This document shows positions 23,404 to 43,651 of a DNA stretch of 64,000 nt, piece after piece. This stretch comes from Cupriavidus oxalaticus (GTDB lineage Bacteria > Pseudomonadota > Gammaproteobacteria > Burkholderiales > Burkholderiaceae). A program made the translations under genes and the position numbers. Under the pieces are notes generated by a model. That model was not told the origin of the DNA. It was given only the letters and a program-made list of their open reading frames with translations, and did not search any database. The stretch lies in contig NZ_CP069812.1 in assembly GCF_016894385.1 (NCBI RefSeq), forward strand, positions 2,976,001 through 3,040,000, in the 5' to 3' direction. Numbering within the stretch: the first letter of the stretch is position 1; the number at the start of each line of letters is the position of its first letter.

Positions 23404-23546
23404 TAATGCCGTTCAGTTAACCGCCGTCGTTCCCGCGCAGGCGGGAACCCAGTGGCTTTTTGTCCCCCATCGGGGGCTTTAAGACGCTGGATTCCCGCCT
23501 GCGCGGGAATGACAGTAGTGATTGATCCCTTAACTGAACGGCATTA
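23404..23546. mobile_element. MITE-like palindromic element, copy 1
   Basis: A 143-bp element bounded by perfect 17-bp terminal inverted repeats TAATGCCGTTCAGTTAA (23404-23420) and its complement (23530-23546). Inside each end lies a TTCCCGC-type inverted repeat around GCGCAGGCGGGAA and its mirror, and in the centre a small hairpin CCCCCATCGGGGG. No coding capacity. Ends in TA, as IS630/Tc1-type MITEs do. A second copy in opposite orientation lies at 43511-43634. It occupies most of the 450-bp gap between metG and the carboxylase gene. Confidence 0.85.
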
Positions 23547-23738: not shown

Positions 23739-26700
23739 GTGAAGAAGCTCCTGATCGCCAACCGCGGCGAGATCGCGTTGCGCGTGCAGCGCGCCGCCCG
23801 GGACCTTGGCATCGCCACCGTGGCCGTCTATGCGGCCGACGATCACGCCAGCCGGCATCGGCTGCTCGCCGACGAAGCCGTCGCGCTGCCGGGCCAGGGC
23901 GCCGCCGCCTACCTCGACATTCCCGCCATCCTCGCCGCCGCGCGCGACACCGGCTGCGACGCCATCCACCCCGGCTACGGCTTTCTCAGCGAACGCGCGG
24001 ACTTTGCCAGCGCCTGCGCTGCGGCGGAAATCATCTTCGTCGGGCCGCAGCCCGAGCAGCTCGCGCTGTTCGGCGACAAAGGCCGCGCGCTGGCGCTGGC
24101 TGCGCGCTGTGGCGTGCCGGTGATGCCCGCCACCACGGGCGGCGCCAGCCTGGAAGCGGTCACCGCCTTCTTCGACGAGCAGGACGGCGCCGGCATCGTG
24201 CTCAAGGCCGTGGGCGGCGGCGGCGGGCGTGGCATGCGCGTGGTGCGCGAGCGCGAGGCGCTGCCCGAAGCCTATGCGCGCTGCCGCTCCGAGGCGCGCT
24301 CGGCGTTCGGCGTCGATGCGATCTATGCCGAACGGCTGGTCGCACGCGCGCGCCATATCGAAGTGCAGATCGCCGGCGACGGCCACAGCGTGATCGCGCT
24401 GGGCGAGCGCGACTGCACGCTGCAGCGCCGCTTCCAGAAGGTGGTCGAGATCGCGCCCAGCCCGGCACTGGACCCGGCGCTGCGCCGGCGCATCGTCGAG
24501 GCTGCCTGCAAGCTGGCGCGCGAGGCGCGCTACCGCAGCCTGGGCACGTTCGAGTTCCTGGTCGAAGAGCCCGAGCATGGCACCCGCCAAGACGGCGCCG
24601 CGCTGCCCTTTGTCTTTATCGAAGCCAATCCGCGCCTGCAGGTCGAGCACACCGTGACCGAACAGGTGACCGGTGTCGACCTGGTCGCCGTGCAACTGGG
24701 ACTGGCACAAGGCCACAGCCTGGCCGAGACCGGCCTCGATCCGCAGCAGCCGCCACGCGTGCGCGGCTATGCCATCCAGGTACGGGTCAATGCAGAATCC
24801 ACCGACGCGCAAGGGCTGGCACGGCCGGCGCAGGGGCGGTTGGAACGATTCGATCCGCCCTGCGGCCCCGACGTGCGCGTCGACACGCACGGCTATACCG
24901 GCTATGCGCCTTCGCCGCACTACGACACGCTGCTGGCCAAGCTGATCGTGACCTCGGCCAGCGACCGGTTCGGCGACGCGGTGCGGCGGCTGCAGCGCGC
25001 GCTGGCGGAATTCAATATCGCCGGCATCGATACCAACCTGGACCTGCTGCGCGCACTCGCGGAACGCGAAGACTTCGCCAGCCAGCAGCTGCACACCCGC
25101 TACCTGGAAGCGGCGCTGCCGGCGTTGCTGGAGCGTGCGGCGCAGATTGCCGCGCAGGACGCGGCCCGGCAAGCGCTGTCGGGCGGCGCTCCCGCCACCG
25201 TGGCGGCCGCGGCCAGCACGGCCAGCTTCGATGAACAGCTGGGCGAAGGCCTGTGCGCGGTGCGCGCGCCGATGGCCGGGCGCGTGATCGAACTGGCGGC
25301 GGAGAACGCACTGGTCAAGGCCGGCCAGACCGTCGCCGTGCTCGACGCGATGAAGATGGAGCACGCCATCGTGGCCGAGCGCGCCGGCCGCGTGATCGAC
25401 CTGCGCACCGATGCGGGCGCGCAGGTGGCCGAGGGCCAGGTCATGCTGGTGCTGGAACCGGCCGATGCCGGGGCCCATGCCGAAGGCGAGGCCGAACGCA
25501 CCGATCCGTCGGCCATCCGCGCCGACCTGCAGCGCGTGCTCGACCGCCACGCCTTCCTCTATGACGCCGCCCGCCCCGACGCGGTGGCACGACGCCGCGC
25601 ACGCGGGCAGCGCACCGCGCGCGAGAACATCGACGACCTGTGCGATGCCGGCAGCTTCCGCGAATACGGCGGCCTGGCGGTGGCGGCACAGGCCAGCCGC
25701 CGCAGCGAAGCCGACCTGATCGCCAACACCCCCGCCGACGGCCTCATCACCGGCACCGGCGCGGTCAATGGCAGCCTGTTCGCGCCCGAGCGCGCGCGCT
25801 GCGCGGTGCTGGCCTATGACGCCACCGTGCTGGCCGGCACGCAGGGCAAGCGCAACCATACGAAGACCGACCGCATCCTGGAGGTGGCGCTGCAGAACCG
25901 CCTGCCGACGGTGATCTTTGCCGAAGGCGGCGGTGGCCGTCCGGGCGATGTCGACTTCCCCACCGTGGCCGGCCTGTACCAGCCCTCGTTTGCCGCCTTC
26001 GCGCAGCTGAGCGGCGAGGTGCCGGTGGTCGGCATCGCCTCCGGGCGCTGCTTTGCCGGCAATGCCGCGCTGCTGGGCTGCTGCGACCTGATCATCGCCA
26101 CGCGCAACGCCAATATCGGCATGGCGGGCCCGGCCATGATCGAAGGCGGCGGCCTGGGCGTGTACCGGCCAGAGGACATCGGCCCGGCCGCGGTGCAGTA
26201 CCACAACGGCGTGGCCGACCTGCTGGTCGATGACGAAGCCGCCGCGGTGGCGGCCGCCCGGCATTACCTGTCGATGTTCCAGGGCCGCGTTGCGGCATGG
26301 CAGGCGCCTGAGCCGCTGGCGCTGCGCCACGTGGTGCCGGAGAACCGCCTGCGCGTGTACGACACCCGTGCCGCGATCACCGGCGTGGCAGATGCCGGCA
26401 GCGTGCTGGAACTGCGCGCGGGCTTCGGCACCGGCATCCATACCGCGCTGGCGCGCATCGAGGGCCGGCCGGTCGGCATCCTGGCCAACAACCCGCGCCA
26501 CCTCGGCGGCGCCATCGATGCCGACGCGGCAGACAAGGCCGCACGCTTCATGCAGCTGTGCAATGCGCATGGGCTGCCCATCGTCTCGCTGATCGATACG
26601 CCGGGCTTCATGGTCGGCCCCGAGGTCGAGGCGCGCGCGCAGGTGCGGCACGTGTCGCGCATGTTCGTCGTCGGCGCCAAGCTGCGCGTGCCGTTCCTGG

Positions 26701-27065
26701 CGGTGGTGCTGCGCAAGGGCTATGGCCTGGGTGCGATGGCGATGGCGGCCGGCGGCTTCCGCGCGCCGTCGTTCACGGTGTCGTGGCCGACCGGAGAATT
26801 CGGCGGCATGGGGCTGGAAGGTGCGGTCCGGCTGGGCTTCCGCAAGGAGCTGGAAGCGCTGCCGGCGGGCCCGCAGCGCGACGCGCTGTACCAGCAGCTG
26901 GTGGCGCAGATGTACGAGCGCGGCCACGCCATCAATGCCGCGGCGGCGCTGGAGATCGACGCGGTGATCGATCCCGCCGCCACGCGCCAGTGGCTGGTCA
27001 GCGGGCTGGATGCCGGCGCGGCGAATCCGGAGCGGCCGGTGCGCAGCTACGTCGACGCCTGGTAG
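23739..27065 (+). CDS. Single-chain biotin-dependent acyl-CoA carboxylase
   Basis: A 1108-aa fused carboxylase that adds CO2 to an acyl-CoA. The N-terminal biotin carboxylase domain (about 1-450) has the ATP-grasp loop GGGGGRGMRVV, the segment ERDCTLQRRFQKVVEIAPSP and EANPRLQVEHTVTEQVTG. The biotinyl domain carries the biotin lysine K539 in VLDAMKMEHAIV. The rest (about 580-1108) is a fused carboxyltransferase with both beta-like and alpha-like halves. Most bacterial acetyl- and propionyl-CoA carboxylases are split into subunits; this layout resembles the single-chain long-chain acyl-CoA carboxylase described from mycobacteria. Acyl specificity is unknown. It heads the operon with a ligase and an importer. 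Confidence 0.88.
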   Translation: MKKLLIANRGEIALRVQRAARDLGIATVAVYAADDHASRHRLLADEAVALPGQGAAAYLDIPAILAAARDTGCDAIHPGYGFLSERADFASACAAAEIIFVGPQPEQLALFGDKGRALALAARCGVPVMPATTGGASLEAVTAFFDEQDGAGIVLKAVGGGGGRGMRVVREREALPEAYARCRSEARSAFGVDAIYAERLVARARHIEVQIAGDGHSVIALGERDCTLQRRFQKVVEIAPSPALDPALRRRIVEAACKLAREARYRSLGTFEFLVEEPEHGTRQDGAALPFVFIEANPRLQVEHTVTEQVTGVDLVAVQLGLAQGHSLAETGLDPQQPPRVRGYAIQVRVNAESTDAQGLARPAQGRLERFDPPCGPDVRVDTHGYTGYAPSPHYDTLLAKLIVTSASDRFGDAVRRLQRALAEFNIAGIDTNLDLLRALAEREDFASQQLHTRYLEAALPALLERAAQIAAQDAARQALSGGAPATVAAAASTASFDEQLGEGLCAVRAPMAGRVIELAAENALVKAGQTVAVLDAMKMEHAIVAERAGRVIDLRTDAGAQVAEGQVMLVLEPADAGAHAEGEAERTDPSAIRADLQRVLDRHAFLYDAARPDAVARRRARGQRTARENIDDLCDAGSFREYGGLAVAAQASRRSEADLIANTPADGLITGTGAVNGSLFAPERARCAVLAYDATVLAGTQGKRNHTKTDRILEVALQNRLPTVIFAEGGGGRPGDVDFPTVAGLYQPSFAAFAQLSGEVPVVGIASGRCFAGNAALLGCCDLIIATRNANIGMAGPAMIEGGGLGVYRPEDIGPAAVQYHNGVADLLVDDEAAAVAAARHYLSMFQGRVAAWQAPEPLALRHVVPENRLRVYDTRAAITGVADAGSVLELRAGFGTGIHTALARIEGRPVGILANNPRHLGGAIDADAADKAARFMQLCNAHGLPIVSLIDTPGFMVGPEVEARAQVRHVSRMFVVGAKLRVPFLAVVLRKGYGLGAMAMAAGGFRAPSFTVSWPTGEFGGMGLEGAVRLGFRKELEALPAGPQRDALYQQLVAQMYERGHAINAAAALEIDAVIDPAATRQWLVSGLDAGAANPERPVRSYVDAW

Positions 27066-27117
27066 CGGCAACGGGCGGCACGGATAGTCAGAACAACAGC
27101 GAGAGGAGACAGCGGGA

Positions 27118-28854
27118 ATGAACGAGCAAGCGTTCTTCGAAGACCTGGAAGCCCGGCATCGCAAGATCTGGCCCGCCGGCCTGCCCACCGCCCCGGCCTA
27201 CCCGCACGGCGAAGCGCCGCTGGGCGACTACCTGCGCGCGTGGGCGCGCAAGCGGCCCGACCATGCCGCGCTGGTGTGGTACGGCAGCACCGTGACCTAT
27301 GCCGAGCTCGACGACCTGTCCGAGCGCTGCGCCGCGCTGCTCAAGGCCGACGGCATCGGCGCGGGCGACCGGGTCGCAGTGATGATGGGCAACTGCCCGC
27401 AGTTCCACGTGGTCTTCTACGGGATTCTGAAACTGGGCGCGGTCTACGTGCCGGTCAACCCGTTGTTCAAGGAACACGAGCTGGTCTACGAGCTGAACGA
27501 TGCCGGTGCCACCACCATCGTCGTGCAGGACCAGCTGGCGCCGCTGCTGATGTCGGTGCGCACGCAGACGCCGCTGCGCACCATCTACACCACCAGTGCC
27601 GGCGCGATGCTGCCGGACCAGCCCACGCTGCCGCTGCCGGCCGGGCTGGATGCGCCGCCGGTCGCCGTGGAAGGCGCCACCGACCTGCTGCAGGCACTGC
27701 GCCAGATCGCGCCAGCCAGCGACCTGGCGCCGATCGACCTCGATGCGCTCGCTGCCCTCAACTACACCGGCGGCACCACCGGCCTGCCCAAGGGCTGCAT
27801 GCACACGCAGCGCGACATGGTCTACACCGCGGCGGCCTCGTATGCGATGTCCGGCAGCGCCGACGCTGGCAGCCTGGCAGAAGGCTCGGACGAGGTGATG
27901 CTGAACTTCCTGCCGATGTTCTGGATCGCCGGCGAGAACCTGGGGCTGATCAGCCCGGTCTTCAGCGGCGCCACGCTCGTGCTGCTGGCGCGCTGGGACC
28001 CCGTGGCGGTGATGGCCGCGATCGAGCGCTACCGCGTCAACCGCACCTTCCTGGTGGTGGACAACGCCGTCGAGCTGATGAACCACCCGGAATGCGGCCG
28101 CCACGACCTGCGTTCGCTGCAGCACACGCGCGCCGCCTCGTTCATCCGCAAGATCACGCCCGACATCCGCCAGCGCTGGCACGCGCTCACCGGCAGCATC
28201 ATTGCCGAGGGCGCGTGGGGCATGACCGAGACCCATACCAGCGACACCTTCACCACCGGCATGCAGACCGACGACATGGACCTGCGCGGCCGCCCGGTCT
28301 TCGTCGGCCTGACCGTGCCGGGCACGCGCATCAAGATCTGTGACTTCGACACCGGCGCGGTGCTGCCCATCGGCGCGGAAGGCGAAATCGTGGTGAGCAC
28401 CCCGTCGCTGCTCAAGGGCTACTGGGGCCGCCCGGAGGTCGACGCCGAAGTCTTCCGCGACGGCTGGTTCCGCACCGGCGATATCGGCGCGTATGACGAG
28501 GCGGGCTACCTGCACTTCCTCGGCCGCCGCAAGGAGATGCTGAAGGTGCGCGGCATGAGCGTGTTTCCGTCCGAGCTGGAAGTGCTGCTGTCGCGCCACC
28601 CGGCGGTGCTGGGCTCAGCGGTCGTGGGACGCGACGATGCCGACAAGGGCCAGGTTCCCGTGGCCTTTATCCGCCTGCGCCCCGAGCACGCGGACGGCAC
28701 CACCGCCGACACGGTGCAGGCGTGGTGCCGCGAGCAGATGGCGGTCTACAAGGTGCCCGAGATCCGCATCCTGCCCGAGCTGCCGCTGACTGCCACCGGC
28801 AAGGTGCGCAAGGTCGAACTGCAGGCCTTGCTGGACGCCGAAGCCGGCCGCTGA
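27118..28854 (+). CDS. AMP-forming acyl-CoA ligase
   Basis: A 578-aa ANL-superfamily enzyme that activates a carboxylic acid to its CoA thioester through an acyl-adenylate. The phosphate-binding loop reads YTGGTTGLPKGC (about residues 218-229), the aromatic-gate region is GAWGMTETHT, the hinge is DGWFRTGDIG, and the catalytic C-terminal lysine is in LTATGKVRK. Closest in style to CaiC/FadD-like ligases of unknown substrate. It begins 52 bp after the carboxylase, behind GAGAGGAGACAG, and probably makes the acyl-CoA which that enzyme carboxylates. Confidence 0.88.
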   Translation: MNEQAFFEDLEARHRKIWPAGLPTAPAYPHGEAPLGDYLRAWARKRPDHAALVWYGSTVTYAELDDLSERCAALLKADGIGAGDRVAVMMGNCPQFHVVFYGILKLGAVYVPVNPLFKEHELVYELNDAGATTIVVQDQLAPLLMSVRTQTPLRTIYTTSAGAMLPDQPTLPLPAGLDAPPVAVEGATDLLQALRQIAPASDLAPIDLDALAALNYTGGTTGLPKGCMHTQRDMVYTAAASYAMSGSADAGSLAEGSDEVMLNFLPMFWIAGENLGLISPVFSGATLVLLARWDPVAVMAAIERYRVNRTFLVVDNAVELMNHPECGRHDLRSLQHTRAASFIRKITPDIRQRWHALTGSIIAEGAWGMTETHTSDTFTTGMQTDDMDLRGRPVFVGLTVPGTRIKICDFDTGAVLPIGAEGEIVVSTPSLLKGYWGRPEVDAEVFRDGWFRTGDIGAYDEAGYLHFLGRRKEMLKVRGMSVFPSELEVLLSRHPAVLGSAVVGRDDADKGQVPVAFIRLRPEHADGTTADTVQAWCREQMAVYKVPEIRILPELPLTATGKVRKVELQALLDAEAGR

Positions 28855-28916
28855 ACGGCAGCATCGTCCGCATACCAGAACACGCCGCATCCGACGGCGA
28901 CCCAGGAGGAGCACAC

Positions 28917-30512
28917 ATGCAACCGAAGTTGACTGCCGCCCGACGGCGGTGCCTGCTTGCCGGCATGCTGGCCGCAGCCAGCCTGCCGCTGGCCCACGCC
29001 GCCGCCCCCGCCACCGGCAGCCTCACCGTGGCGTTCGGCGCGGAATCGACCACGCTCGATCCGGTCAAGATTTCCGCCGGCGTCGACCACTATTTTGTCG
29101 GCCAGATCTTCGAGATGCTGGTGCGCCGCAATGCCGCGCTCAAGGACGAGAACTGGCTGGCGGAAAGCTGGAAGCTGGAGACCGGCAAGGACGGCAAGCC
29201 GGTGCTCGACGTGCGGCTGCGCAAGGGCGTGCGCTTCCACAACGGAGATCCACTGACCGCCGAGGACTTCGAGTTTTCCTGGCAACGCCAGCGCGACCCC
29301 AAGGGCAGCTTCTTCTCGCATTACGTGTCGTCGATCGAACGCTTTGAGATCGTCGACCCGCATCACTTCAAGCTGCATTTCAAGGAGCCCGACGCGCAGT
29401 TCATCGTCGGCAACATGCAGCTGTGGGCGATGCCAAAGAAGTACATCCAGAAGGTCGGCGAGGAAGAGTTTGCGCGCAAGCCCGTCGGCACCGGCCCGTG
29501 GAAGTTCGTCTCGCGCACGGTCAAGGACGAGCTGAAGCTGGAAGCCTTCGACGGCTACTGGAACAAGGAAAAGCGCCCGGGCGTCAAGGACCTGACCATC
29601 AAGGTGATCCCGGAAGACCTGACCCGCGTGGCGGCGTTCAAGACCGGCAAGGTCGATTTCATCGACAACGTGCCGCCCGCGATGGTCGAGGAGTTCAAGA
29701 AGATGCCGGGCGTGAAGACCGTCACGCTGGTGAGCGGCAACAACCTCTTTCTCAACTTCAACACGCAGATGCCGAAGTCGCCGTTCAATGACGTGCGCGT
29801 GCGGCAGGCGGCGGCGCATGCCATCGACGTCGACGCCATCATCAAGCGCGTGCTGTTCGGCCAGGGCGAGCGCTACGCGCAGGTGGGCAAGGAATCGAAC
29901 GGCTACGATCCCGCGCTCAAGCCCTACCCCTTCGACCAGAAGCGCGCGCGCGAGCTGCTGAAGCAGGCGGGCTATCCCAACGGCTTCGACACGCCCTGCT
30001 ACAACCTCACCACGCCGCGCGAGCCAGGCGTCAAGGAAGTCGGCGAAGCCATGTACGCTTACCTCAGCTCGGTCGGCATCCGCTGCCAGGTGCGCAACCT
30101 GGAATACGGCGCGTGGATCAGCCTCGGCAAGCGCGGCCGCACCGGCCCGCCTGAGATGGATGGCGTGCTGAGCTGGATGTGGTCGCAGGGCCTGCCCGGC
30201 GATCCCGGGCTGGCATGGTCCGGCCATCTGCACAGCTACCAGGGCGGCGGTGGCTGGGGCACGTACTCCTACACCAACGACCCCGAGGTCGACGCGCTGA
30301 TCGAAAAGCAGCGCCAGACCATGGATCCGGCGGCGCGCACCGACCTGCTCAAGCAGATCGCCAGGCTGAAGCAGGAGCGCGTGCTGGGCGGCCTGCCGAC
30401 CTACCGCCCGCTGGTCACCTTTGCCTGGCGCGACAACAAGATCGACTACGTGCCATGGCCGATCCGCGACTACTGGCGCTCGTTCCAGGAAGTGAGCTGG
30501 AAGCAGCACTGA
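28917..30512 (+). CDS. ABC importer periplasmic binding protein (peptide/nickel family)
   Basis: A 531-aa extracytoplasmic solute-binding protein of family 5 (DppA/OppA/NikA). A signal peptide with an Arg-rich n-region (ARRR) ends near AHA at about residue 28, with no lipobox, so it is free in the periplasm. Family hallmarks include RLRKGVRFHNGDPLTAEDFEFSW split around residues 98-120 and PVGTGPWKFVS near 190. The ATG at 28917 follows AGGAGGAG. Members bind peptides but also many unrelated solutes; here its neighbours suggest a carboxylic acid or short acyl peptide. Confidence 0.9.
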   Translation: MQPKLTAARRRCLLAGMLAAASLPLAHAAAPATGSLTVAFGAESTTLDPVKISAGVDHYFVGQIFEMLVRRNAALKDENWLAESWKLETGKDGKPVLDVRLRKGVRFHNGDPLTAEDFEFSWQRQRDPKGSFFSHYVSSIERFEIVDPHHFKLHFKEPDAQFIVGNMQLWAMPKKYIQKVGEEEFARKPVGTGPWKFVSRTVKDELKLEAFDGYWNKEKRPGVKDLTIKVIPEDLTRVAAFKTGKVDFIDNVPPAMVEEFKKMPGVKTVTLVSGNNLFLNFNTQMPKSPFNDVRVRQAAAHAIDVDAIIKRVLFGQGERYAQVGKESNGYDPALKPYPFDQKRARELLKQAGYPNGFDTPCYNLTTPREPGVKEVGEAMYAYLSSVGIRCQVRNLEYGAWISLGKRGRTGPPEMDGVLSWMWSQGLPGDPGLAWSGHLHSYQGGGGWGTYSYTNDPEVDALIEKQRQTMDPAARTDLLKQIARLKQERVLGGLPTYRPLVTFAWRDNKIDYVPWPIRDYWRSFQEVSWKQH

Positions 30513-30602
30513 TCCTCTGGCACTAACGGCACTACCCCGCCACCGCGCCTGCCACGCTGCAGGCGCGGCCCCCCTGCTGGCGTTATCCCCACGGAGCCTG
30601 CC

Positions 30603-31514
30603 ATGCCTATCGCGAAACGCCTGTTGCACGGGCTGATCAGCATCCTGGGCGCGAGCGTGATCATCTTCCTGATCTCGCGCCTGTCCGGCGATCCGCTCGC
30701 GCTGCTGCTGCCGGCCGATGCCCCGCCCGATGTCATCGCGCAGACGCGCCAGCACCTGGGCCTCGACAAGCCGCTGGTGGCCCAATACCTGGTGTTCCTG
30801 AGCCACGCCGTTACCGGGGACTTCGGCAACTCTTACCGCTGGCAGGAGCCGGCACTGGGCCTGATCCTGGAGCGGCTGCCGGCCACGGTGGAACTGGCGC
30901 TGGCCGCGCTGGGGTTCTCGATCGCGATGGCGGTGCCGTTCGGCGTGCTCTCGGCGGTGTACCGCGGCTCGTGGTTCGACCGCTTTGCCAAGGTTTTCGC
31001 CATGCTCGGGCAGGCCATGCCCAACTTCTGGGTCGGGCTGCTGCTGATCCTGTTCTTCGCGGTGCAGCTGAACTGGCTGCCGGCCTTCGGGCGCGACTCG
31101 TGGAACAGCCTGGTGCTGCCAGCGATCGCGCTGGGCTGGTATCCGGTGGCGGCGCAGACGCGGGTGGTGCGCTCGGCCATGCTCGACGTGCTCGACAGCG
31201 ACTACATCCGCATGGGCCGCGCCATGGGCCTGCCGGAAGGCGTGCTGGTGTGGAAATACGCGCTGCGCAACGCGGCCATCCCGCTGGTCACGATCCTCGG
31301 CGTGTATTTCGCGGCGATGCTGGGCGGCGCTTTCGTGGTGGAAGTCATCTTCGCCTGGCCCGGCGTCGGCCGCACCGTGGTGGAGGCGGTGTTCGCGCGC
31401 GATTTCCCCGTGGTGCAGGCGGGCGTGATGCTCACCTCCGTGCTGTTCGTGCTGTCCAACCTGCTGGTCGACCTGAGCTACGGCCTGATCGACCCGAGGA
31501 TCCGCCATGCCTGA
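30603..31514 (+). CDS. ABC importer permease 1 (DppB family)
   Basis: A 303-aa inner-membrane permease with six predicted helices. The N-terminal GLISILGASVIIFLISRLSG and the cytoplasmic coupling loop RTVVEAVFARDFPVVQAGVM are typical of the DppB/OppB group. Residues 60-80 form the usual periplasmic loop HLGLDKPLVAQYLVFL. It follows the binding protein by 90 bp and overlaps the second permease by 8 bases. Confidence 0.92.
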   Translation: MPIAKRLLHGLISILGASVIIFLISRLSGDPLALLLPADAPPDVIAQTRQHLGLDKPLVAQYLVFLSHAVTGDFGNSYRWQEPALGLILERLPATVELALAALGFSIAMAVPFGVLSAVYRGSWFDRFAKVFAMLGQAMPNFWVGLLLILFFAVQLNWLPAFGRDSWNSLVLPAIALGWYPVAAQTRVVRSAMLDVLDSDYIRMGRAMGLPEGVLVWKYALRNAAIPLVTILGVYFAAMLGGAFVVEVIFAWPGVGRTVVEAVFARDFPVVQAGVMLTSVLFVLSNLLVDLSYGLIDPRIRHA

Positions 31515-32400
31515 GATCGCCATCCCGCCCGCAACCACGGCGGCGCCGCCGGCGCGCAAGCAACGCCGGCGCGAGCCGGGCAGCCTGCCCTGGTTCGCGC
31601 TGGCCGTGTTCCCGCTGCTGCTGGTCTGCGCCATCGGCGGCGCAGCGCTGCTGCCGCACGATCCCAACGGCCTCGACCTCGGCCTCGCGTTCCAGCCGCC
31701 GGCATGGCTGGAAGGCGGCAGCTGGGCTTATCCGCTCGGCACCGACAACATGGGCCGCGACCTGCTCAGCCGCATCATGGCCGGCACCCGCATTTCGCTG
31801 GTGGTGGCGCTGTATGCCATCCTGATCTCGGGCGGCATCGGCACCGCCGCAGGCATGCTGGCCGGCTACTTCGGCGGGCGCCTCGATGCGCTGATCATGC
31901 GGCTGGTCGATATCCAGATGTCGATCCCGGCGCTGGCGCTGGCACTGGTGCTGGCCGCGGTGCTGGGCCCGGGCTTCGAGACCGTGGTGCTGGTCATCGT
32001 GATCACCTACTGGACCTGGTACGCGCGCATCGTGCGCGGCGAGGTGATGTCGCTGAAGCAGCGCGACTACGTGGCGCTGGCGCGCGTGGCCGGCTGCGGC
32101 ACCGTCACCATCTTCCGCCGCCACCTGCTGCCCAACCTGCTCAATACGCTGCTGGTACTGGCCACGCTGCAGGTCGGCCAGGTGATCATCTTCGAGGCCT
32201 CGCTGAGCTTCCTCGGGCTGGGCATCCAGCAGCCCGACGTGTCCTGGGGCCTGATGCTGGCCGACGCGCGCAACTACATCACCAACGCGTGGTGGGCCAT
32301 CACCATGCCGGGGCTGGCCATCATGGCGACCTGCCTGGCGTCCAACCTGCTGGGCGACTGGCTGCGCGACCACTTCGACCCGAAACGGAGGCAGCTATGA
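31507..32400 (+). CDS. ABC importer permease 2 (DppC family)
   Basis: A 297-aa partner permease. After a short basic N-terminus comes a first helix (about residues 30-50), the DppC hallmark LGTDNMGRDLLSRIMAGTR (about 78-96) and the coupling-loop sequence RVAGCGTVTIFRRHLLPNLL. It starts inside the end of permease 1 and its stop overlaps the ATG of the ATPase gene (ATGA at 32397-32400), so the importer genes are translationally coupled. Confidence 0.92.
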   Translation: MPEIAIPPATTAAPPARKQRRREPGSLPWFALAVFPLLLVCAIGGAALLPHDPNGLDLGLAFQPPAWLEGGSWAYPLGTDNMGRDLLSRIMAGTRISLVVALYAILISGGIGTAAGMLAGYFGGRLDALIMRLVDIQMSIPALALALVLAAVLGPGFETVVLVIVITYWTWYARIVRGEVMSLKQRDYVALARVAGCGTVTIFRRHLLPNLLNTLLVLATLQVGQVIIFEASLSFLGLGIQQPDVSWGLMLADARNYITNAWWAITMPGLAIMATCLASNLLGDWLRDHFDPKRRQL

Positions 32401-33437
32401 ATGGCACCAGCCAGGACATGACGCAACAACAAGCTGCCCCCGCCGCGCCGGCTGTCCGCGACGTTGCCGCGCCGATGCTGTCGGTGCAGGGCCTGACCAC
32501 GCATCTGGACCTGCGCCGCGGCCTGGTGCGCGCGGTGGACGGCGTGGACCTGCACGTGCACGAGGGCGAGACGCTGGGCGTGGTCGGCGAGTCCGGCTCG
32601 GGCAAGTCGATGACGATCCTGTCGATCCTGCGCCTGCTGCCGCGCGGCGCGCAGCTGGGCGGCAAGGTCTTGCTCGACGGCACCGACCTGCTGCAGCTCC
32701 CGGAGAAGGCCATGAGCCGCGAATACCGCGGCCGCAAGATCGCGATGATCTCGCAGGACCCGCTGACCTCGCTGAACCCGGTCTTCACCGTCGGCGACCA
32801 GGTCGGCGCGCCCTTGCACTACCACGGCCGCGCCGACAGCCGCGAGGCGCGCCGCCGCCAGGTGGTGCAGGTGCTGGAAAGCGTACGCATTCCCTCGCCG
32901 CAGACACGCCTCGACGACTATCCGCACCAGTTCAGCGGCGGCATGCGCCAGCGCGTGGTGACCGGCATGGCGATCGCCAGCGCGCCGCGGCTGCTGGTGG
33001 CCGACGAGCCGACTTCCGCGCTGGACGTCACCATCCAGGTGCAGATCATGGCGCTGTTCCGCAAGATCCAGGCGCAGACCGGCGTCGGCATCATCCTGAT
33101 CACGCACGACCTCGGCGTCGCCGCCAGCATCTGCCATCGCGTGGCGGTGATGTACGCGGGGCGCATCGTCGAGACCGGCGACGTGCGCACGCTGTACCAG
33201 CGCCCCGCCCATCCCTATACGCAAGCGCTGCTCAAGTCCATTCCTCACTTCGGCGAAAGGCAGGAGCGGCTGTATGCGATCCCCGGCAGCCCGCCCAGCC
33301 TGATCGATCCGCCGCACGGCTGCCGCTTCGCGGCGCGCTGCCCGCACCGCAAGCCGCTGTGCGACGACGCCTATCCGCCCGAGATCGAACTGGAATCCGG
33401 CCACAAGGTCAGCTGCTGGCTGGCTTCGGCCGGCTGA
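32397..33437 (+). CDS. ABC importer ATPase 1 (DppD family)
   Basis: A 346-aa ATP-binding subunit. Walker A GESGSGKS (about residue 62), signature FSGGMRQR (about 180), Walker B LLVADEPTSALD (about 200) and the switch histidine in LITHDLG are intact. The C-terminal oligopeptide-type extension has the cysteine cluster CRFAARCPHRKPLC expected of DppD/OppD proteins that bind a [4Fe-4S] cluster. The 27 residues before the ATPase domain are poorly conserved, so a later start is possible, but the ATGA overlap favours 32397. Confidence 0.92.
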   Translation: MNGTSQDMTQQQAAPAAPAVRDVAAPMLSVQGLTTHLDLRRGLVRAVDGVDLHVHEGETLGVVGESGSGKSMTILSILRLLPRGAQLGGKVLLDGTDLLQLPEKAMSREYRGRKIAMISQDPLTSLNPVFTVGDQVGAPLHYHGRADSREARRRQVVQVLESVRIPSPQTRLDDYPHQFSGGMRQRVVTGMAIASAPRLLVADEPTSALDVTIQVQIMALFRKIQAQTGVGIILITHDLGVAASICHRVAVMYAGRIVETGDVRTLYQRPAHPYTQALLKSIPHFGERQERLYAIPGSPPSLIDPPHGCRFAARCPHRKPLCDDAYPPEIELESGHKVSCWLASAG

Positions 33438-33460
33438 GCCACACGCCCTCAGGAGGCACC

Positions 33461-34423
33461 ATGCTGCTCGAAGTCCACGACCTGAAGAAGCACTTCCCCG
33501 TACGCGGCGGCGGCACGGTACGCGCCGTCGACGGCGTCAGCTTTGCCGTCGACGCCGGCCAGACCTATGCGCTGGTGGGCGAATCCGGCTGCGGCAAGAC
33601 CACCATCGCCAGGCAGTTGCTGCTGCTCGAGCGGCCCAGCGCCGGCACCATCCGCTTCGACGGCCAGGACGTGCTCACGCTCGGCCGCACGGGCGTGCTG
33701 GCCTACCGGCGCCAGGTGCAAGCGGTGTTCCAGGATCCATCCTCGTCGCTCAATCCGCGCCTGAAGGTCGGCATGCTGCTGGCCGAGCCGCTGCTGGCCC
33801 ACGGACTCGGCGGCGACCGCGCGGCGCTGCGCCGGCGCCTGCTCGAGCTGCTGGAGATCGTCGGCCTGCCGCCCGGCGCGCTCGACCTGTATCCGCACGA
33901 GTTCAGCGGCGGACAGCGGCAGCGCATCGCGGTGGCGCGCGCGCTGGCGCTGCAGCCGCGGCTGATCGTGCTGGACGAGCCGACCTCGGCGCTGGATGTG
34001 TCGATCCGCGCGCAGATCGTCAACCTGCTGGCGGACATCCAGCGCAGTTTCGGCATTGCCTATGTGATGATCGCGCACGACCTGGCGCTGGTGGAGCACT
34101 TCAGCTCGGCGGTGGGCGTGATGTACCTGGGCAGCATGGCCGAGAGCGGGCCGAGTCCGGCGGTGTTCGGCGCGCCGCGCCATCCCTACACGCAGGCGCT
34201 GCTCGGCTCGGCGCCGCGGCCGGACCCGGACCACCAGCCGGCCGAGGGGCTGATCCTCGGCGAGATCGGTTCGGCACTGAACCCGCCACCGGGCTGCAAG
34301 TTCCATCCGCGCTGCCCGCGCGCGGTGCCGGCGTGCGGCAAGGACCTGCCGCGCCTGCGCCAGCTTGCGCCGCATGGCGACGGCAAGCCGGTGCATGTGG
34401 CGGCCTGCCACCTGCTGGTGTGA
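33461..34423 (+). CDS. ABC importer ATPase 2 (DppF family)
   Basis: A 320-aa second ATP-binding subunit pairing with the DppD-type protein. Walker A GESGCGKT, signature FSGGQRQR, Walker B LIVLDEPTSALD and the C-terminal cysteine motif CKFHPRCPRAVPACG are present. The ATG at 33461 has an AGGAGG site 4 bases upstream and is 23 bp after the previous stop. It is the last gene of the operon and converges on the BamE-like lipoprotein gene. Confidence 0.92.
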   Translation: MLLEVHDLKKHFPVRGGGTVRAVDGVSFAVDAGQTYALVGESGCGKTTIARQLLLLERPSAGTIRFDGQDVLTLGRTGVLAYRRQVQAVFQDPSSSLNPRLKVGMLLAEPLLAHGLGGDRAALRRRLLELLEIVGLPPGALDLYPHEFSGGQRQRIAVARALALQPRLIVLDEPTSALDVSIRAQIVNLLADIQRSFGIAYVMIAHDLALVEHFSSAVGVMYLGSMAESGPSPAVFGAPRHPYTQALLGSAPRPDPDHQPAEGLILGEIGSALNPPPGCKFHPRCPRAVPACGKDLPRLRQLAPHGDGKPVHVAACHLLV

Positions 34424-43494: not shown

Positions 43495-43651
43495 AAGCAG
43501 GCCGGCGGCCTAATGCTGTTCAGTTAATGCATCAAGCACCACTGTCATTCCCGCGCAGGCGGGAATCCAGCGTCGTTTGAAGTCACTGGGTTCCCGCCTG
43601 CGCGGGAACGACGGTGGTTAACTGAACGGCATCAAGGCCGCCGGCCTGCTT
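43495..43651. terminator. Bidirectional terminator split by a MITE-like insertion
   Basis: AAGCAGGCCGGCGGCC (43495-43510) and its exact complement GGCCGCCGGCCTGCTT (43636-43651) flank the repeat element at 43511-43634. Together they would form a 16-bp stem, with A-rich bases on one side and T-rich on the other, as for a terminator serving both panC and the convergent PepSY gene. The element now forms the loop. Confidence 0.7.
43511..43634. mobile_element. MITE-like palindromic element, copy 2
   Basis: About 124 bp with ends TAATGCTGTTCAGTTAA (43511-43527) and TTAACTGAACGGCATCA (43618-43634), two mismatches from perfect inverted repeats. The inner TTCCCGC inverted repeats match copy 1 (23404-23546) in opposite orientation; copy 1 has about 20 more bases at its centre. 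No coding capacity. Confidence 0.85.

Follow-up and report, generated by a model that had tools for sequence, protein, structure and literature searches.

Single-chain biotin-dependent acyl-CoA carboxylases have been described with structure and kinetics as long-chain acyl-CoA carboxylases (LCC). According to the part of that description available (PMC6491548), an LCC of the kind considered here accepts acyl-CoAs from C2 to C16, its Km being lowest for long chains, namely palmitoyl-CoA, and has a proposed role in carbon and nitrogen metabolism; an operon with a ligase and an importer is absent from the same part of the text. In the portions of the literature searched, no natural substrate of LCC-type carboxylases was found. 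The routes through geranyl- and methylcrotonyl-CoA carboxylase likewise form an acyl-CoA that is then carboxylated with biotin (geranyl-CoA carboxylase: PMC4673880, in the part available); however, these enzymes are two-subunit α6β6 complexes, whereas the locus reported here encodes one chain with a linked importer. On the side of uptake, pimFABCDE of R. palustris and a neighbouring fatty- and dicarboxylic-acid ABC importer also combine uptake with an adjacent CoA ligase and further acyl-CoA enzymes, but pimFABCDE encodes β-oxidation without a carboxylase (Giuliani 2011, PMC3223731, in the part available). The same part reports on a single COG0747 (Dpp-type) binding protein that bound long-chain fatty acids and is left unnamed there. 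The parts of our locus are known; their combination was not found described in the literature searched, in which, judged mainly by titles and abstract openings, no paper on a coupling of ligase, LCC and importer was found.

The locus was examined in a 64,000-nucleotide stretch (the window) of the chromosome of Cupriavidus oxalaticus, whose genome comprises 6.69 Mb in two contigs. The original prediction of a same-strand carboxylase, ligase and complete Dpp-type importer was borne out by coordinates, which are exact at the outer ends, and by Pfam support for every one of the seven genes (Table 1). For the binding protein and both ATPases the longest open reading frame is too long at the 5′ end, and their starts (~28917, ~32397 and ~33461) were judged from the signal peptide, Pfam positions and relatives. 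With these starts the intergenic spacings are 52, 62, 90, −8, −4 and 23 nt. The metG gene ends 450 nt upstream of the carboxylase, and the genes downstream of the importer lie on the opposite strand. Terminator-like sites (3 versus a shuffle mean of 4.6) showed no excess, and promoter-like sites numbered 0 versus a shuffle mean of 0.6. The spacing suggests that the seven genes would form one transcript. Between metG and the carboxylase lies a MITE- or REP-like element of ~140 bp (23404-23546), which is bounded by inverted repeats of 17 nt (TAATGCCGTTCAGTTAA) and encloses a 42-nt hairpin; a second copy is present at window positions 43511-43634.

Table 1. Genes of the carboxylase-ligase-importer locus (window coordinates).
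Feature	Position	Strand	Remarks
Single-chain biotin-dependent acyl-CoA carboxylase (BC-BCCP-CT), LCC kind	23739..27065	+	1108 aa, GTG start; five Pfam domains
AMP-forming acyl-CoA synthetase, NCBIfam PRK06178	27118..28854	+	578 aa; AMP-binding, AMP-binding_C; 958.9 bits
Periplasmic solute-binding protein family 5 (Dpp/Opp-type)	28917..30512	+	531 aa, signal peptide; SBP_bac_5 263.9 bits; start judged
ABC permease 1	30603..31514	+	BPD_transp_1
ABC permease 2	31507..32400	+	BPD_transp_1
ABC ATPase 1	32397..33437	+	346 aa; ABC_tran + oligo_HPY; start judged, longest ORF from 31704
ABC ATPase 2	33461..34423	+	320 aa; ABC_tran + oligo_HPY; start judged, longest ORF from 33359

The carboxylase combines Biotin_carb_N, CPSase_L_D2, Biotin_carb_C, Biotin_lipoyl and Carboxyl_trans domains (Pfam) in one chain, and it thereby differs from the geranyl/methylcrotonyl-CoA type, which divides these functions between an alpha (BC-BCCP) and a beta (CT) subunit. 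The closest solved structure is 4rcn, 'long-chain acyl-CoA carboxylase' (1107 bits), which has the same domain order in one chain and aligns over residues 3-1087; 5fif and 5h80, pieces of single-chain carboxylases, are also among the nearest known systems. The motifs AMKM and EANPRLQVEH, which we take to be the biotin site and a motif of the biotin carboxylase half, respectively, are apparently intact. The single-chain layout proved less rare than originally claimed, as LCC-type matches (E ≤ 1e-200) occur in 39 of the 398 Pseudomonadota genomes in our sample, which includes the present one, and our genome carries a second LCC on the other contig. This second LCC is 73% identical to that of the window. 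According to Pfam, its neighbours are a separate carboxyltransferase, a CaiB-type CoA-transferase with a doubled domain, a receptor of the TctC type and an MFS protein. Two further observations were made near LCC loci. In three alphaproteobacterial loci (L247:18450-19400; also L215, L249), the gene directly after the LCC encodes a conserved protein of ~317 aa without a Pfam match, which is also found nearby in L251 and L046; on visual inspection it looks similar to dehydratases or thioesterases of the hot-dog fold, and it could act on the carboxylation product. A gammaproteobacterial MAG carries two tandem LCC-like genes, 44% and 45% identical to that of the window (L150:4238-10955), and a similar pair occurs in L111.

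The score of the window ligase lies above the curated cut-off of 782 bits for the NCBIfam family PRK06178, which makes it a member of a family whose name carries no substrate. The next-best families among the matches listed are long-chain fatty-acid ligases, all below cut-off. TGGTTGLPKG and TGKVRK, presumably the functional motifs of the ligase, are apparently intact. The string PRK06178 had no occurrence in the 5.39 million papers covered by the literature search.

The importer has the five-part make-up and the fold of the Dpp/Opp/Nik-type (family-5) systems, with an SBP_bac_5 binding protein, two BPD_transp_1 permeases and two ABC_tran + oligo_HPY ATPases, in both of which apparently intact Walker A and signature motifs, as we take these ATPase motifs to be, were read. 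It is unlike them in its linkage to a ligase and a carboxylase and in the replacement of an aspartate found in peptide binders. None of the NCBIfam equivalog cut-offs for named peptide, nickel and glutathione importers was reached by the binding protein (best score 143.1 versus 594 for GsiB), and the permeases and ATPases likewise remain under the cut-offs of the named systems in the matches listed. A model of the binding protein (mean pLDDT 90.4) has the family-5 fold. Assigning the ligand by fold was tried and dropped, as the structure comparison favours none: proteins that bind peptides, glutathione, opines or other ligands differ by no more than a few Z units.

In peptide binders, the aspartate of the WTGDNGDP motif holds the amino end of the peptide. 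This residue aligns with a leucine in the window binding protein (alignment with GbpA, 3m8u, and thus by alignment only), where the motif reads SWMWSQGLPGDP, as it does in most of 59 relatives. The alpha-type binding proteins of alphaproteobacterial loci carry an arginine at this site, and the eight LCC-linked ones examined with the motif read WTGRPDP; four unlinked family-5 proteins retain GDNGDP. Our findings suggest that the label 'peptide transporter' would be wrong for LCC-linked importers. Because of the C2-C16 range of LCCs, the ligase scores, the loss of the aspartate and the binding protein in the available part of Giuliani 2011, we lean towards a hydrophobic carboxylic acid as the putative imported substrate.

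Conservation within the genus was analyzed in 60 Cupriavidus genomes, own included. A window-type carboxylase (at least 79% identity) was detected in 20 and a window-type binding protein (at least 87%) in 19 of them. Carboxylase, ligase and importer form one cluster in 16 genomes (16/20 LCC-bearing, 16/19 importer-bearing), among them G048, whose contig stops inside the binding protein, and the cluster adjoins metG in 13 of the 16. The four LCC orthologues without a window-type importer are those of G040, G005, G036 and G030, and in the latter two the ligase is followed by a TctC-type receptor (Pfam). Such a receptor is also located at the ligase-importer junction in G033 (Pfam) and G019 (92% match) and, by spacing, probably in G031. 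Three genomes (G057, G049 and G047) have the importer without a window-type carboxylase orthologue; in G047 the importer is cut off by the end of the contig. In 12 of the 16 clusters, ligase and binding protein are separated by an almost complete IclR regulator gene. It has no match at window positions 28855-28916 or in G013 and G048, and in G007 44 residues are left; the best match elsewhere in our genome is 41% identical. Most likely, therefore, ligase and importer lie so close together in the window because a regulator was lost.

The PRK06178 ligase is strictly tied to LCC genes in the two samples scanned, for which the best 3 or 6 candidates per genome were scored. Six of the 398 genomes of the phylum sample (own included) contain a total of seven matches over cut-off, all located 34-154 bp from an LCC and six of them on its strand. 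In the 198 genomes of the alphaproteobacterial family of G424 (probably the Nitrobacteraceae, G424 grouping with Bradyrhizobium and Afipia in a tree), 27 genomes yielded 31 matches, all 34-218 bp from an LCC and all on the LCC strand. Pooling gave 38 matches, 37 of them on the same strand as the LCC; with three occurring in both samples, 35 distinct ligases remain, all 35 within 218 bp of an LCC. The converse is looser, since 31 of the 48 LCCs in the family of G424 have a PRK06178 ligase and 17 do not. On a Haematobacter plasmid, ~6.8 kb separate a PRK06178 ligase from the LCC, the importer being located between the two, and the 218-bp rule is therefore valid for the two samples alone. This case and that of G057, described below, show that the adjacency is not absolute.

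Linkage of the importer cannot be judged by raw counts. The phylum sample gave 42 LCC matches, of which 38 were inspected with their flanks (omitting two each from our own genome and from G014); three of these 38 loci have a complete Dpp-type importer in the fetched flank and 35 have none. As our genome alone contains 11 SBP_bac_5 matches (about 3% per 20 kb) and the other whole genomes searched contain 2-37, three of 38 is not clearly above the expectation from importer density, and we abandoned this count as evidence. A test by subfamily was therefore needed. The binding protein of the Bradyrhizobium locus L094 (alpha-type) was used as query against the 198 genomes and gave 36 matches in 32 of them. 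Of the 25 matches with at least 59% identity, 23 share the strand of an LCC and lie no more than 8 kb away from it, compared to 0 out of 11 at 43-48% identity; the genomes of one family are related and do not represent independent trials. The two misses are G642, at a contig end, and G607, where the binding protein adjoins a carboxyltransferase that stands alone and shares 54% identity with the one in the second Cupriavidus cluster.

The window binding protein as query found matches in a single one of the 198 genomes, again G607, with two matches. This genome has a one-strand run of binding protein, two permeases, two ATPases, double CaiB and LCC, with importer parts 61-70% identical to those of the window. 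A tree, which carries a long-branch warning, separates the Cupriavidus importers from the alpha-type importers, and importers of both subfamilies sit in alphaproteobacterial LCC clusters. The Haematobacter plasmid combines LCC, a GntR gene, importer and PRK06178 ligase in an order unlike that of the window; in Haematobacter, a paralogue of the alpha-type binding protein adjoins annotated fatty-acid (β-oxidation) genes. An earlier view of the importer as confined to Cupriavidus (0 of 88 sampled other-genus genomes, and the tree) was dropped, as relatives at 59-70% identity occur in Vineibacter, Bradyrhizobium, Crenalkalicoccus and Acuticoccus, plus the two in G607. Five pairs of a binding-protein relative and a ligase relative agree in the length of their longest contig (63 and 57 relatives compared, out of at least 120 listed for each protein), which is no more than suggestive. 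Among 116 LCC loci, composed of the best 80 of 586 loci in a named-genome scan and 36 of the phylum sample, a complete importer is present in eight, an AMP-forming ligase no further than 2.5 kb away in 26 (in 13 of these with at least 45% identity to the two query ligases) and a double CaiB in nine, all counted from tblastn or HMM matches. In the same set the importer goes with an activating enzyme (6/8 versus 29/108, p 0.009). What carries the argument is that different genera and two classes agree and that parts have been swapped.

Such exchanges were observed for the carboxylase and for the ligase. In G057 three genes follow the importer on its strand; they encode a PRK06178 ligase (938.7 bits), a separate carboxyltransferase (346 bits with Carboxyl_trans) and a biotin carrier of 74 aa. 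The ORFs predicted in the flank of this split version included no biotin carboxylase; they come from a crude gene caller, which also gives some antisense and over-long ORFs. In G049 the importer is followed by a ligase (65% identical) and the start of a separate carboxyltransferase at the contig end. Importer and ligase are kept here with a differently built carboxylase, so that uptake, activation and carboxylase stay together. The ligases of Haematobacter, G057 and L055 are also PRK06178 members by cut-off. A double CaiB CoA-transferase stands in place of the ligase in L094, L145, L147, L205 and G607. Upstream of the LCC, double CaiB and importer cluster of L147, a small biotin-carrier-like ORF (L147:581-841) recalls the 74-aa carrier of G057. 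We also considered ligase and double CaiB as strict alternatives and rejected this, since their lack of overlap (0 of the 116 loci with both; 26 and 9 loci, best 80 of 586 plus 36) gave p 0.20 and the Haematobacter plasmid has both.

Taken together, the coupling of ligase, LCC and importer is real and conserved but not universal. The parts co-occur elsewhere, in the same-genus clusters, in the ligases beside LCCs and in alphaproteobacterial clusters with two importer subfamilies; this co-occurrence, a check named in the original prediction of a self-contained import-activate-carboxylate unit, upholds that prediction in part, whereas the importer is missing in 4/20 same-genus and 35/38 phylum-sample loci. 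As the importer is often absent, the core seems to consist of ligase and carboxylase, with the importer as a third part that can be exchanged. The analysis shows the domains, the order of the genes, their conserved coupling and the exchange of single parts with the others retained, and on this basis we consider it somewhat probable that the operon is dedicated to the uptake and carboxylation of a carboxylic acid. Binding protein and ABC importer would take up the acid, the PRK06178 ligase would convert it into the CoA thioester with ATP, and the LCC would transfer biotin-bound CO2 to the acyl-CoA, yielding a carboxylated (malonyl-type) acyl-CoA for enzymes encoded elsewhere; a product-using enzyme is not present in the operon. 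We infer the action of importer, ligase and LCC in series on one molecule, the direction of the reaction, the carbon that would be carboxylated and the fatty-acid-like rather than peptide nature of the acid. As a prediction from sequence, the route is plausible.

Alternatively, ligase and carboxylase might form one unit while the neighbouring importer is an ordinary importer for peptides or another solute that shares the locus by chance. Its frequent absence beside LCCs would fit, as would the abundance of family-5 importers, which leads one to expect some adjacency by chance, the IclR gene between ligase and importer in most Cupriavidus clusters and the peptide binders among the nearest fold matches. 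However, two importer subfamilies separated in the tree are each linked to LCCs across classes, the importer remains with the ligase when the carboxylase is exchanged, and the aspartate that holds peptides is not retained, which makes a chance neighbour unlikely in our opinion.

Less probable still is a unit for building rather than growth, in which external fatty-acid-like acids would be scavenged and converted to substituted malonyl-CoA building blocks. The preference for long-chain acyl-CoA reported for LCCs (PMC6491548, in the part available) and the absence of a degradative enzyme from the operon are in line with such a function, but the loci annotated by family search showed neither a polyketide synthase nor a lipid synthase, and the alpha-type paralogue in Haematobacter neighbours genes for degradation by β-oxidation. 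The pathway might also run in the reverse direction, with a malonate-type diacid being imported, converted to the CoA ester and then decarboxylated in a biotin-dependent step. In favour of this, the best-scoring family for the separate carboxyltransferase of G057 is methylmalonyl-CoA decarboxylase alpha, although far under the cut-off (367.7 versus 998.8). Nevertheless, the LCC retains its whole biotin carboxylase half, which a decarboxylase is not known to need, and we regard this direction as very improbable.

The preferred reading of an uptake-and-carboxylation unit can be extended to a modular nutrient pathway of Pseudomonadota, in which an ABC importer for a non-peptide acid would feed a PRK06178 ligase and a single-chain carboxylase. 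Each part would be exchangeable: a double CaiB could replace the ligase, a separate carboxyltransferase could take over from the LCC, and the importer could give way to one of the second subfamily or to a TctC-type receptor; to this wider proposal we give an even chance. The question of the substrate is directly testable, as the ligase was found only beside LCCs in the two samples and the binding protein is open to a simple binding assay. LCC-type carboxylases, with a solved relative, are present in about one tenth of the sampled Pseudomonadota genomes, and the modular pathway, if true, would give these enzymes and the PRK06178 ligases their cellular role.
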